A stretch of DNA of 34,064 nucleotides from Oligoflexales bacterium. GTDB lineage: Bacteria; Bdellovibrionota_B; Oligoflexia; Oligoflexales; RGVZ01. This document shows, piece by piece, positions 15,107 through 23,072 of this stretch. The translations under genes and the position numbers were made by a program. Under the pieces are notes generated by a model. It was not told the DNA's origin. It worked only from the letters and a program-made list of their open reading frames with translations, and searched no databases. The stretch is from contig CANJZQ010000023.1 of the NCBI GenBank assembly GCA_947479535.1, positions 1 through 34,064 of the forward strand. Direction: 5' to 3'. Numbering within the stretch: the stretch's first letter is position 1; each line of letters begins with the position of its first letter.

Positions 15107-16144
15107 ATGGCCACATCTGTCACCGGCGACCGCATTCTGGTGCTCGGCGCAGGCAATTTCGGAACCTGTTTGGCCCAGCACCTTGCTGAAAAAGGCCACC
15201 ACGTAACCCTTTGGGCAAGATCGCCTGAAATCGCTGCCGGTATCAACCAAAACCGGAAAAATCCCAAATACTTGAACGCGCTTACCTTATCACCGCGAAT
15301 TGGTGCGATCAACAACATCACTGACGACTTGCTCGCAGAACATCGCATCATCGTTCTGGCAACTGCCGCACAAGCCCTAGCCCAGGTGCTTAAAAAAGTG
15401 GCAGATTTTGGCACGTCTCCAGATCACGTCATCATCTGTGCCGTAAAAGGGATCGAAATATCGACGACCCGTCTGCCAGGGGCCATCGTTTCAGATTTAT
15501 TAGGCAGTGAGGCGGGAAAAAAAGCGGTCTTTCTGTCTGGCCCTAGTTTTGCTTCTGAAGTCGCCACCCATCAACCCACCGCCGTCGTCGCAGCGAGCCA
15601 TGATGCGTCGCGCGCGCAACTTGTGCAGGCTCTTTTCCACGCACCACAATTTCGGGTCTACACGAGCGACGATCCACTAGGTGTCGAGCTTGCGGGCGCT
15701 TTAAAAAATGTGATCGCCATCGCGGCGGGAGCAGCCGTTGGCCTCGGCTTTCAAATGAATTCACGCGCTGCCTTGATCACCCGTGGGCTTGCGGAAATGC
15801 GTCGCATCGGAGTTGCCATGGGCGCAAACCCGATGACATTTGAAGGCCTCGCCGGAGTCGGCGACTTGTTCCTGACCTGCACGTCTGAAAAAAGCCGTAA
15901 TTTTCAAGTGGGCCTTCGCCTGGGCCGGGGCGAAAGGATCCAAGCCATTCTCGACAGCCTTGGCTCTGTCTCTGAAGGTTATGCCACCACCATGGCCGCC
16001 CGCGACCTCGCCCACAGGCTTGGCGTCGACGCCCCGATCACAGAGGCCGCCTATCAGGTCCTCTATGAATCCCGTCCAATCGCCCAAGCCGTCATGGGCC
16101 TTTTAACCCGCGACGCCAAACCGGAGCTCGACAGCCCCACATGA
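15107..16144 (+). CDS. gpsA: Glycerol-3-phosphate dehydrogenase [NAD(P)+]
   Basis: A 345-aa cytosolic enzyme that reduces dihydroxyacetone phosphate to sn-glycerol-3-phosphate, the head group for phospholipid synthesis. The Rossmann motif LGAGNFGT is at residues 13-20. The KGIEISTTRLPG segment and LSGPSFASEV follow, then the catalytic-lysine region ALKNVIAIAAGAAVGLG near residue 200, and the NSRAALITRGLAEM and GLAGVGDLFLTCTS blocks of the substrate domain. Length matches E. coli GpsA (339). I chose ATG 15107 because GAAGGAG is 6 nt upstream; a TTG at 15092 would lie within that site. It overlaps the cinA-like gene by four bases (ATGA). Confidence 0.96.
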   Translation: MATSVTGDRILVLGAGNFGTCLAQHLAEKGHHVTLWARSPEIAAGINQNRKNPKYLNALTLSPRIGAINNITDDLLAEHRIIVLATAAQALAQVLKKVADFGTSPDHVIICAVKGIEISTTRLPGAIVSDLLGSEAGKKAVFLSGPSFASEVATHQPTAVVAASHDASRAQLVQALFHAPQFRVYTSDDPLGVELAGALKNVIAIAAGAAVGLGFQMNSRAALITRGLAEMRRIGVAMGANPMTFEGLAGVGDLFLTCTSEKSRNFQVGLRLGRGERIQAILDSLGSVSEGYATTMAARDLAHRLGVDAPITEAAYQVLYESRPIAQAVMGLLTRDAKPELDSPT

Positions 16145-17334
16145 CATCAAAGGCAGCCATCATCGCCATTGGCAGTGAAGTCGCCAGCGGCGAGATCCTC
16201 AACACCAACGCCTCCTGGCTTGCCGGGCACCTCGACGCCTGTGGCATTGAAGTTCCCCTGCACCTTGCGGTCCCCGACAACCGGACCGCCATTTTGGATG
16301 CCCTGGACTTTGCTGCAGCGCGCGCCAACTTTATCCTGACCATTGGCGGACTAGGACCGACGAGCGATGACTTTACCCGTGACATCATCACAGAATGGGC
16401 GGGGTTAAAAACTTTCTTTGACCAGCCATCGTGGGACCGGATTGCCGGGCGGTTTCAGAACATGGGGCGCGCTGCCCCAGAATCAAATCGTCAGCAATGC
16501 TTTTTTCCGCAAGGATCACGCATCCTTCTGAATTCGCAGGGCTCTGCCAACGGATTTTCCCTGACCGTTCGCAATGCCCAGATAACCGTCCTTCCCGGAC
16601 CTCCGCGGGAACTGCAGGCCATTTGGAACGATCACCTTCAAAAAGAATTCGAGGCGCTCGGGTCAGAAAGTGGAAAACCCAGGTTGCGCACTTGGGCCTG
16701 CCTCGGGGTTCCGGAATCCACTCTTGCTGAACAGGTGGAAACCATCATGAAAGGCAGCCAACTGCAGCTTGGCTACCGCGCCTCGGCTCCAGTCGTTCAC
16801 GTGAAAGTATGGGTGCCAAAAGGGAGCGAAGAGCAATCCCGGCCTTTTTTAGATCGACTCGATCAGACGCTCGACCCTGTCTGCATCGCCCGCGATGGTG
16901 CTGACCCACTCATGGCACTAAAGGCTAAATTAAGTACGAAAGGCGCCGCCACGCATATCACGCTGCATGATTCCATCACAGCCGGCATCCTCGCCTCACG
17001 CCTTGCCGAACTGCTGCGCCCCATGAAAATTCCCTTCTCTTTGACTTCCGACTTCATATCTCCTGACGCCCTACCCCGTCATTCTGAGCAGCCCCGTCAT
17101 TCTGAGGCGCAGCCGAAGAATCCTCTCCTCTTCCCGAAAGACCCCATTCATATCTTTCTGCGCGACGATGCCGGCATACCGACCATGACCCTGACGTCCC
17201 AAGGCAAATCCATCGACCGGATGTATCCATCGGACCAACTTCCCGCCGCCAGCGATGCGCTGCAAATAAACAGAACACGACTGCTTTTGACCGAGCGCGT
17301 TCTGATCGATTTAAACAAGCACATGCTGAAATAA
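16141..17334 (+). CDS. cinA: CinA-like protein with MoCF domain and degenerate C-terminal domain
   Basis: A 397-aa CinA-family protein. The N-terminal MoCF (MoaB/MogA-like) domain is clear: AIIAIGSEVASGEILNTN, then LTIGGLGPTSDDFTRDII, and VLPGPPRELQAIW near 160, consistent with the pyrophosphatase half of CinA that acts on nucleotides such as ADP-ribose. The C-terminal nicotinamide-nucleotide amidase half is poorly conserved. Where family members have an AES(C)TGG motif, this protein reads HDSITAG, near residue 280. Residues ~311-329 (PRHSEQPRHSEAQPKN and neighbours) come from a repeat-like insertion (see the repeat feature). The amidase function is therefore doubtful. The ATG overlaps the gpsA stop, suggesting co-expression. 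Confidence 0.85.
   Translation: MTSKAAIIAIGSEVASGEILNTNASWLAGHLDACGIEVPLHLAVPDNRTAILDALDFAAARANFILTIGGLGPTSDDFTRDIITEWAGLKTFFDQPSWDRIAGRFQNMGRAAPESNRQQCFFPQGSRILLNSQGSANGFSLTVRNAQITVLPGPPRELQAIWNDHLQKEFEALGSESGKPRLRTWACLGVPESTLAEQVETIMKGSQLQLGYRASAPVVHVKVWVPKGSEEQSRPFLDRLDQTLDPVCIARDGADPLMALKAKLSTKGAATHITLHDSITAGILASRLAELLRPMKIPFSLTSDFISPDALPRHSEQPRHSEAQPKNPLLFPKDPIHIFLRDDAGIPTMTLTSQGKSIDRMYPSDQLPAASDALQINRTRLLLTERVLIDLNKHMLK
17074..17125. repeat. Dispersed-repeat-like element inserted in frame in cinA
   Basis: Two 15-base copies of CCCCGTCATTCTGAG lie exactly 18 bases apart (17074-17088 and 17092-17106), followed by GCGCAGCCGAAGAATCC. The string CGTCATTCTGAG...CGAAGAATC resembles a short repeat that I recall as dispersed through intergenic DNA of many bacterial genomes; its reverse strand encodes the tell-tale RILRLRLRMT. 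Because the period is a multiple of three, the cinA frame stays open. The repeat structure is seen directly; its membership of a dispersed family is from memory and untested. Confidence 0.7.
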
Positions 17335-20858: not shown

Positions 20859-23072
20859 ATGAGAAAATTGACGCCCCTCGCAGAAATCCACGTTCCCACA
20901 CCGAAGGCAGACGAATGGTATCGTTTGAACTTCAATGGCTTGGATCACGGCTTTCTTGGGCTCAAAAAACTTCTCGGTGCTGCCGACATCAGCAAAGCTG
21001 GAGATCGTAATGCGGGGCTGGCGGCGCATTCTGAACTCGAACGCGAGGTGGCGCGCACCATTTTGTCATCATTGAGCGTGCAGCATCTGTTTGATCGCCC
21101 GTTGACCGATGATTCAGGGCTGGTGGATTCGGTGATGCGCGTCAACTATGCGATCAATCGTGATGCTTTCGCCGAAATTTCAGCACTCAGTCTTGGTGAG
21201 GTGAAAAACCTCCTGCTTCGCAGTGACGGTGCTGGGATTAAACGCATTGGCAGTGGTTTGACCGGTGTTACGGCTGCCGCCTTGGCAAAAATCATGGACA
21301 CCCATGAGCTGATTTATGTTGCACGAAAAATCGAGCACATCACCAAAGCACGCACCAGGATTGGACTTCGCAAAACCTTGGCGTCGCGCCTGCAACCCAA
21401 TCATCCAACCGATGATTTGCGCGGGATGACCTGTCTGACTTACTTGGGCCTTTCCGTAGGTTCCGGGGACGCCCTGATTGGGGTCAACCCGGCCGTTGAC
21501 ACCGTCGAAAATATTTCTGCCATCCTCGTTCACCTGGACAAGCTCCGCCGCAGCACGAAGGCACCGACCCAGATTTGCGTGCTGGGGCACATGAAAACCC
21601 AGTTGGCATGTTTGGAGGGCGGCGCACCGGTTGAAATCATGTTTCAAAGCCTTGCTGGCACAGAGCGCAGCAACCTGACCGAATTTGACATCTCGGTGGA
21701 ACTGCTGGATCTCGCCTACGTGACCATGCAGAAGAAAGGCGCTTTGGGGCCACAGGCCGAGCAGTTCATGTATTTTGAGACCGGGCAGGGTAGCGAGTTT
21801 ACCTATGGAAAACACAACGGCATCGACATGACGACCGCCGAAGCCCTGTGTTACGGGCTTGCCCGTCGCTACGACCCCTTCATGGTGAACAATGTGACTG
21901 GATTCATCGGACCAGAAACACACCTCGATAACTTTGAAATGATCGCCGCCAACCTGCAGGATCATTTCATGGGAAAACTCCTTGGATTGCCGATGGGAAT
22001 GGCCCCCTGCTACACGCTTCATTCCAAAATCGGCCTCGAAGGCCAACAGATGGCAACCGAATTGCTGACCGCGGCGGGCGCCACTTTTTTCATGGACGTT
22101 TGTTTGAACACGGACCGCATGCTCGCCTATTTTGATACGAGCGGTCACGACAACCAGACCCTGCGCGAGATTCACGACAAGGAACCTGCACCCGACTACC
22201 TTGTTTGGGCAGTGGAACGCGGAATCTTCCGGCGCAATGGCGATGGCCATCTTGTGCGCGGCGAAAACTGGGGCAACCCGCGTATGTTCTGCCAAACAAA
22301 CGCGGAGCTCGAAGACCTGCTCCGGTTGACGCCGAGCGTACCCGGCTTTTCACCCAAGAACCATGCGGGGCCGCGACCGACGAATGACGTGATGCGGGAA
22401 ATCCGCCGGCACCAAGCCGTCGGACGCGCAGCCATTCAAAGCAAACTCGATCTCGCCCGTTTAAGCAGGGTTGCTGATTTCCGCGTCGTCAAAACCAAAG
22501 CCGTCGATAAAGCCAGCCATCTCAATCATCCTGATTTTGGCGCTGAACTGGGAATTGCGATCGGTGGCGGGAATGCGACGCTGTTGACTCCAGAACACAC
22601 CGACATTCAGATTGTCGTTTCCGATGGACTCAGCGCCGATGCAGTGCATCACAATATCGATGACCTTTTCCCCATACTGCTTGCAGGATTGAAGGCCAAG
22701 GGCTTCAAGCTTGGCCAGCATATCCTTGCGCCTTACGGCCGGGTAAAACTGGCGGAGCCCATTGCCAAGGCCCTCGGCACGCGTTGTGTGATCCTTCTAA
22801 TCGGAGAAAGGCCTGGTGGCAGCGCCCTTGCCTCCCGCAGTTTGTCTGCTTATTTGGTTTATCATCTGCTTGATCAAGACGAGCAGCTAAAGGCGGCCAA
22901 GTTTAGCGGTAACGATGACATCCGCTTTGAATATTCTGTCCTGTCGAACATCTACGAGGCGGGGATTCCGGCGGTCGAAGCTGGCAGCGTCATTGTTGAA
23001 AAGATCGAACAAATACTCCGCTATCGTGCAGCAGGAAATCGCCTTGAATCCCTGATCAACCCATCGCCATGA
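20859..23072 (+). CDS. eutBC: Ethanolamine ammonia-lyase, EutB-EutC single-chain fusion
   Basis: A 737-residue protein joining both subunits of adenosylcobalamin-dependent ethanolamine ammonia-lyase (ethanolamine to acetaldehyde plus ammonia). Residues ~1-470 are EutB, a TIM-barrel catalytic subunit, with GVNPAVDTVENIS, CVLGHMKTQLAC, MFQSLAGTERSN and MYFETGQGSEFTYGKHNGIDM. Residues ~530-737 are EutC, the cobalamin-binding small subunit, with IVVSDGLSADAVHHN and LLIGERPGG, where most EutC proteins read ERPGL. A linker rich in charged residues (~475-530) joins them, uninterrupted by a stop. In the EutB part, the region equivalent to E. coli CYTNHAEADQDD reads CYTLHSKIGLEGQQ, so this is a divergent clade. 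ATG 20859 follows eutA by 10 nt. A terminator follows. Confidence 0.9.
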   Translation: MRKLTPLAEIHVPTPKADEWYRLNFNGLDHGFLGLKKLLGAADISKAGDRNAGLAAHSELEREVARTILSSLSVQHLFDRPLTDDSGLVDSVMRVNYAINRDAFAEISALSLGEVKNLLLRSDGAGIKRIGSGLTGVTAAALAKIMDTHELIYVARKIEHITKARTRIGLRKTLASRLQPNHPTDDLRGMTCLTYLGLSVGSGDALIGVNPAVDTVENISAILVHLDKLRRSTKAPTQICVLGHMKTQLACLEGGAPVEIMFQSLAGTERSNLTEFDISVELLDLAYVTMQKKGALGPQAEQFMYFETGQGSEFTYGKHNGIDMTTAEALCYGLARRYDPFMVNNVTGFIGPETHLDNFEMIAANLQDHFMGKLLGLPMGMAPCYTLHSKIGLEGQQMATELLTAAGATFFMDVCLNTDRMLAYFDTSGHDNQTLREIHDKEPAPDYLVWAVERGIFRRNGDGHLVRGENWGNPRMFCQTNAELEDLLRLTPSVPGFSPKNHAGPRPTNDVMREIRRHQAVGRAAIQSKLDLARLSRVADFRVVKTKAVDKASHLNHPDFGAELGIAIGGGNATLLTPEHTDIQIVVSDGLSADAVHHNIDDLFPILLAGLKAKGFKLGQHILAPYGRVKLAEPIAKALGTRCVILLIGERPGGSALASRSLSAYLVYHLLDQDEQLKAAKFSGNDDIRFEYSVLSNIYEAGIPAVEAGSVIVEKIEQILRYRAAGNRLESLINPSP

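Follow-up and report, generated by a model that had tools for sequence, protein, structure and literature searches.

The window, the whole 34,064-nt stretch analysed here (positions 1 to 34,064 of contig CANJZQ010000023.1, assembly GCA_947479535.1, Oligoflexales bacterium), contains an ORF that codes for a 397-aa CinA-like protein. Within this ORF, the 15-mer CCCCGTCATTCTGAG occurs as two exact copies, at 17074-17088 and 17092-17106, giving an 18-base period. The second copy is followed by GCGCAGC and then by the tail CGAAGAATCC at 17114-17123. The initial annotation had described two 15-base copies with an 18-base period and a tail, lying in frame inside cinA, and both points were confirmed in the window sequence. 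Its estimate of an insert of about 18 residues (311-329) was close; the repeat actually codes for 17 residues, 312-328. When up to three mismatches were allowed, the window held four matches to the 15-mer, as compared with a mean of 1.06 in shuffled sequences, and none of 100 shuffles reached four. The two 15-base copies correspond to the left arm (hereafter "head") of a hairpin repeat, CGTCATTCTGAG-loop-CGAAGAATCC, whose parts are listed in Table 1. An Rfam scan of the window gave no family at gathering score.

Table 1. Features of the repeat-bearing segment in the cinA-like gene (positions in the window).
Feature	Position	Strand	Remarks
cinA-like gene	16141..17334	+	MoCF_biosynth domain; weak CinA_KH below cut-off; C-terminal domain unrecognised
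Possible decayed outermost head	17054..17076	+	Suggested by comparison with G001 and G003
Extra 18-base head unit	17077..17094	+	CGTC tag, ATTCTGAG arm and array-specific spacer; without a tail of its own
Complete 29-base hairpin element, CGTC-ATTCT-GA-GGC-GCA-GCC-GA-AGAAT-CC	17095..17123	+	46.0 bits to covariance model R1, whose training set includes this element's own sequence
Outer stem, 5' arm ATTCT	17099..17103	+	Holds the covarying pair
GA, side 1 of tandem G.A	17104..17105	+	Invariant in A4; letters set by the collecting pattern
Inner stem GGC/GCC with GCA (GNA-type) loop	17106..17114	+
GA, side 2 of tandem G.A	17115..17116	+	Invariant in A4; letters set by the collecting pattern
Outer stem, 3' arm AGAAT	17117..17121	+
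Pyrimidine 3' flank CTCTCCTC	17123..17130	+	Variant of the family's CTTTCTT flank

The initial annotation had suggested that the segment is a dispersed repeat with further copies in the host genome, and a genome search found such copies in abundance. In the genome of origin (G000; 2.40 Mb in 72 contigs), GTCATTCTGAG occurred 57 times exactly, the cinA pair included, and GTCATCCTGAG 189 times, with reversed controls of 0 for both; the 15-mer with up to two mismatches was found at 168 places (control, 2). The full hairpin pattern TCATYCTGAG-N3..14-GAAGRATC had 144 matches in G000, 137 in the sister species (G001), three and two in the remaining members of the genus (G002 and G003, respectively) and 44 in G008. 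It had none in the other five family members searched, and the reversed control was 0 in all ten genomes. REPs in the broad sense are dispersed, high-copy repeats of 20-40 bases; the present pattern spans 21-32 bases, with 144 copies against a control of zero.

REPs in this sense also keep a stem-loop by compensatory change. We examined 117 full copies from 59 G000 stretches. The search pattern set both GA steps and the outer-stem letters other than those of one variable pair, where either letter was accepted on each side regardless of the other and pairing was thus free to fail. The variable pair was C-G in 73 copies, T-A in 43 and mismatched in one (116/117 matched); outside the genus, it was matched in 98/99 copies from G008, G024, G038 and G039. 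Among 42 distinct elements, the variable pair was C-G in 24 and U-A in 18, with no mismatch, and the second inner pair was C-G in 26, G-C in 15 and U-G in one; the two innermost pairs were unpaired in 22 and 19 of the 42 rows. The covariation score of 0.244 was reached by 0/500 shuffles and dropped when the partners were slid. Two of five covariation measures were not above the shuffles (both-sides-changed pairs, 441/500; further pair types, 434/500).

The stem consists of 5 bp, a tandem G.A step, in which GA stands opposite GA between the outer and inner stems, and usually 2-4 bp more. The loops of the 117 G000 copies were mainly GNA closed by C-G (70), GNNA (17; 13 GNYA and four GNRA) and GNAB (11), and 117 fetched copies from G001 had 64 GNA and 36 GNNA loops; GNA or GNNA loops closed by C-G were present in 87/117 G000 and 100/117 G001 copies. 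ANA loops were about as common as GNA loops in G008 (17 and 18 of 44) and G039 (9 and 8 of 22). GNRA tetraloops, which an RNA should favour, were a minority of the GNNA loops (4/17 in G000). When at least two G-C pairs are present, hairpins with GNA or GNNA loops are described as extraordinarily stable DNA mini-hairpins (PMC4686876). The loop type suggests that a hairpin of single-stranded DNA, not of RNA, may be the structure that matters. The window segment did not fold clearly better than shuffled sequences (z = -0.31 for 52 nt and -1.04 for the 34-nt element). Two-storey hairpins were seen in six other stretches (L106, L118, L134, L138, L139 and L142), with a nested module CCCTGAGCG-AGCGAAGGG that also places GA opposite GA. 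In L093, L108, L126, L133 and others, elements were paired tail to tail over a short spacer, often one C-type with one T-type.

Location was scored for clusters with at least two exact heads, leaving out 16 clusters with one exact head, and neighbouring genes were called by a simple codon score, for which the window served as training sequence; 23 clusters had no recognised neighbour within 700 bases. Among the 22 scored clusters, 19 lay between genes (11 convergent, eight in the same direction and none divergent) and three inside genes, a distribution expected of REPs in the broad sense, which lie mostly between genes but not between divergent ones. The gene-internal arrays were those in cinA, in mutL and in a helicase gene. 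Tail-less single heads inside ORFs in L101, L114 and L119 were chance-like matches and were excluded from this group. In mutL (L112:402-2261; G000:C12:8111-9967; orthologues L147, L148 and L149), the repeat is antisense and lies between recognised domains, and its arrangement differs between G000 and G001. The helicase gene (L137:1-1554, G000:C50), truncated at the start of its contig, contains three elements in complete form; Pfam gives UvrD_C, and we read the gene as AddA/RecB-like. At the repeat position, the segments of its G003 and G002 orthologues are much shorter. Both the mutL and the helicase arrays sit in variable parts of the proteins.

The cinA segment was absent from all five aligned CinA proteins of the sister genus (5/5); a sixth sister-genus genome, G005, gave no CinA match. 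The alignment with relatives indicated that the segment is an in-frame insertion, and conservation in CinA proteins of unrelated bacteria, which the initial annotation had named as the contrary outcome, was not found. The low conservation of the CinA C-terminal domain, and the difficulty of aligning it, would allow an ancestral piece of the fold, or a chance similarity, to be mistaken for a repeat; with reversed controls of 0, identical units elsewhere in the genome and a sister genus without the segment, we consider this explanation vanishingly improbable.

The MoCF_biosynth domain of the protein (P0001) was recognised by Pfam (PF00994, E = 3.4e-27). The CinA deamidase domain PF02464 was not reported in P0001 or in three of four relatives (L062, L063 and L070), and it was present in the fourth, L078, of the same order (E = 5.4e-30). 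In each of the four species of the genus, the reading frame is open beyond the insert; in G003, whose match contains one marked TAA, the ORF continues as far as the last few residues. Three parts of the gene gave dN/dS values of 0.11 (to residue 246), 0.20 (residue 246 to the insert) and 0.46 (beyond the insert) between G000 and G001; the values for the same three parts between G000 and G003 were 0.09, 0.16 and 0.20. Against G002, it was 0.13 in the first part and not measurable beyond, because synonymous sites were saturated. As judged by these sequence comparisons, the C-terminal domain is divergent but still constrained rather than dead, because dN/dS was 0.46 or lower wherever it was measurable. 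The domain had been called degenerate in the initial annotation, which holds in so far as it is divergent and PF02464 is missing; it does not hold in the sense of a domain ruined by the insert. AlphaFold prediction of P0001 with two relatives gave a mean pLDDT of 43, too low for a fold search.

All four genomes of the genus that we examined keep some form of the cinA segment. G000 has two heads and G001 has three (PRHSEQPRHPEQPRHSEAQPKNP). In G003, a remnant is left whose C-type tail is intact but in which no head is clearly recognisable; it aligns with G000 and G001 through CAGCC-GAAGGATCC. G002 has a single decayed element, CGTCATCCCGAGCGCAGGGAAGGACCC, that matches the common consensus at 24/27 bases in a different head frame. 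G002 and the tail of G003 show the C-type stem, and G000 and G001 the T-type, except for one C-type head among the three of G001. Because decayed or partial versions occupy the same site in G002 and G003, the insertion is probably not recent. The 24/27 identity in G002 and the G003 tail suggest that it probably predates the genus. Thus, the capture of a dispersed repeat in cinA, as initially proposed, was borne out, except that only the present head number appears to be young.

The G002 copy and the G000/G001 array could, however, be separate arrivals at one permissive hot spot, as the different stem types and the different head frame in G002 would allow. The covariance model lends little support to the G002 site (8.5 bits, E = 1.8) and, with hits accepted up to E = 10, found nothing at the G003 site. 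An array at L131 (G000:C28) is built from a unit identical to that of cinA, GTCATTCTGAGCAGCCCC, so that conversion or re-insertion at cinA is possible. An array at L141 (G000:C59) has nearly the same 18-base unit, and the L131 and L141 arrays are possible sources of the cinA head units. On the other hand, G002 has repeat copies at only four places with up to three mismatches to the consensus and at three others by the full hairpin pattern; one of these seven is at cinA, which is unlikely to be a coincidence. The mutL repeat, the other old site, is likewise relic-like in G002 (11.6 bits, E = 0.18), and the G003 sequence aligns with G000 and G001, as given above. We therefore regard independent insertions as rather unlikely and favour a single ancestral insertion, which would be the simplest history, with head units later replaced, or added, in the stretch that separates the ancestral loop from the ancestral tail.

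A typical array consisted of n units of a head with a 6-9 base spacer, one complete hairpin and a pyrimidine flank close to CCTTTCTT. Successive heads were mostly 17-20 bases apart, and an array usually kept to one step length. The G000 stretches contained 128 head-head intervals of up to 30 bases when one mismatch per head was allowed (71 with exact heads) and two exact tail-tail cases, which we interpret as a larger repeat present in two copies; in G001, there were 95 head-head intervals (42 with exact heads) versus one tail-tail case. The tail-tail counts with one mismatch (21 and 28) were dropped, since most of these matches lay on the opposite strand or were due to chance. Between arrays at L095 (G000:C3, near 11 kb), L097 (C4, near 70 kb) and L185 in G001, there is what seems to be a larger intergenic segment in repeated copies.

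When 59 and 42 stretches of G000 and G001 were compared, 33 aligned repeat sites were found in common, of which 31 were informative, cinA and mutL among them; two pairs (L094 and L106) were excluded because their aligned parts lacked heads. The head number differed at 28 of the 31 sites; therefore, the positions are inherited and the head number is the part that changes. We infer that the head half was duplicated by replication slippage at the hairpin, mostly in steps of 17-20 bases. The intervals were divisible by three in 1/1 case at cinA and 6/6 at mutL versus 61/174 in the other stretches, a figure that includes 3/4 from the third gene-internal array; intervals within one array are not independent events. 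Between genes, any step would be tolerated, and inside genes selection would keep the ORF, which 18-base steps satisfy. The helicase array has intervals of 18, 19, 36 and 36 bases, one of the four not being a multiple of three, so that frame keeping is imperfect step by step.

Taken together, we estimate a probability of roughly 80% that the cinA segment represents a REP-like hairpin repeat, inserted into the gene in frame, probably before the genus diversified, and subject since then to turnover in head number. The hairpin would have entered a variable part of the C-terminal domain, and the insertion would have been kept because the reading frame stayed open. The protein insert is most likely a tolerated passenger without a function of its own. 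Its persistence in all four genomes, together with the two other arrays in variable protein parts, could also be explained if the repeat-coded peptide or an mRNA hairpin had been recruited in cinA, for example as a flexible linker or for transcript stability or regulation. Such recruitment appears improbable to us, as the segment ranges from three heads to a short remnant, its head frame has changed in G002, its fold is not clearly more stable than shuffled sequences and 19/22 scored clusters lie outside genes.

We compared the repeat, read as a tolerated REP-like insertion, with known classes. The CGTC REPs, which include Neisseria dRS3 and Rickettsia RPE-4 and RPE-6, are described as having a CGTC end, A-T first stem pairs, stems of 8-9 bp, loops of 4-5 bases and mostly a CCA end, and apparently lack a dedicated transposase (PMC3733652). 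The cinA repeat resembles them in having CGTC at one end, a short loop and an unpaired C-rich end, in being intergenic and sometimes intragenic, as RPE-4 and RPE-6 also are, and in having no dedicated transposase known (PMC3733652). CG preceded TC in 112/117 copies and TG in three, where the collecting pattern had set TC and not the preceding bases; A-T and T-A were the first two stem pairs in 42/42 distinct elements, with letters set by the collecting pattern. The stem and loop rule given for CGTC-1 to CGTC-4 does not describe the cinA repeat, whose stem is broken by the tandem G.A and whose loop is mostly of three bases, and its 3' end is CCTTTCTT-like rather than CCA. Head-only tandem arrays are common here, whereas head-tail dimers are called negligible and groups rare among CGTC REPs (PMC3733652). 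Palindromes with two or more mismatches were removed in that survey unless they were dimer partners (PMC3733652), so that a stem with a tandem G.A would tend to fail its filter. We set the family apart from CGTC-1 to CGTC-4 provisionally, by the described stem and loop rule rather than by their consensus sequences, and it may be identical with one of them.

The Rickettsia palindromic elements RPE-1, RPE-4 and RPE-6, as presented in the same survey (PMC3733652), are similar in that a short in-frame palindrome is tolerated in genes. They are recognised by in-frame insertion relative to homologues without the element, which is what the comparison with the sister-genus CinA proteins gave. The present repeat differs from them in host lineage and stem build, and its internal copy number differs among species. 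REPINs and BIMEs, which are associated with RAYT transposases, resemble it in being hairpins often paired in opposite orientation, but carry a GTAG tag (PMC6006769), whereas the cinA repeat carries CGTC. REPs mobilised by RAYTs have a cognate Y1 transposase; the Y1 domain PF01797 was absent from G000-G003 (draft genomes, about 90% complete) and was present in G005, in G008 and in 5/14 control genomes. Intragenic in-frame tandem repeats (VNTRs) are a known class, and the cinA array is like them in that its 18-base units vary in number without a frameshift; it is unlike them in that one half of a hairpin element dispersed through the genome, rather than a private local repeat, forms the unit. 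Gene invasion by hairpin repeats is already known in other bacteria, and the cinA case is not a new kind of event. Searching the literature with exact sequence strings, we recognised no paper about this repeat among the matches listed.

The family is patchily distributed. At least one match was found in 13/58 genomes of the class, and the phylum-level search covered the same 58 genomes. A 35-base consensus query gave close matches in three of 72,556 records at E up to 0.01: two Calothrix plasmids (26 and 25 bases, both at 100% identity) and a Granulicella plasmid (28 bases at 96.4%). We take the hosts of these plasmids to be Cyanobacteria and Acidobacteriota, so that close matches extend to two other phyla. 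The cinA site offers a multi-species series at a single gene position, from empty in the sister genus through decayed and partial forms to two and three units, and the polar growth of head arrays provides a testable handle on repeat expansion without a known transposase. Where CGTC REPs lie within genes, these are often repair genes, and recB and uvr genes are among those reported to contain REPs (Di Nocera et al. 2013, PMC3733652). A more far-reaching proposal, which we hold to be doubtful, is that these repeats form an undescribed REP superfamily with an ultra-stable single-stranded DNA hairpin, made so by the tandem G.A and the GNA loop, whose polar head arrays would arise through slippage and persist where genome-maintenance proteins are variable. 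If so, array changes that keep the frame of mutL and of the AddA/RecB-like gene could affect repair capacity and, through it, the instability of the repeat itself.

Apart from the repeat, the window contains at 20859-23072 (+) a single 737-aa ORF in which EutB and EutC, the large and small subunits of ethanolamine ammonia-lyase, are fused, next to EutA.
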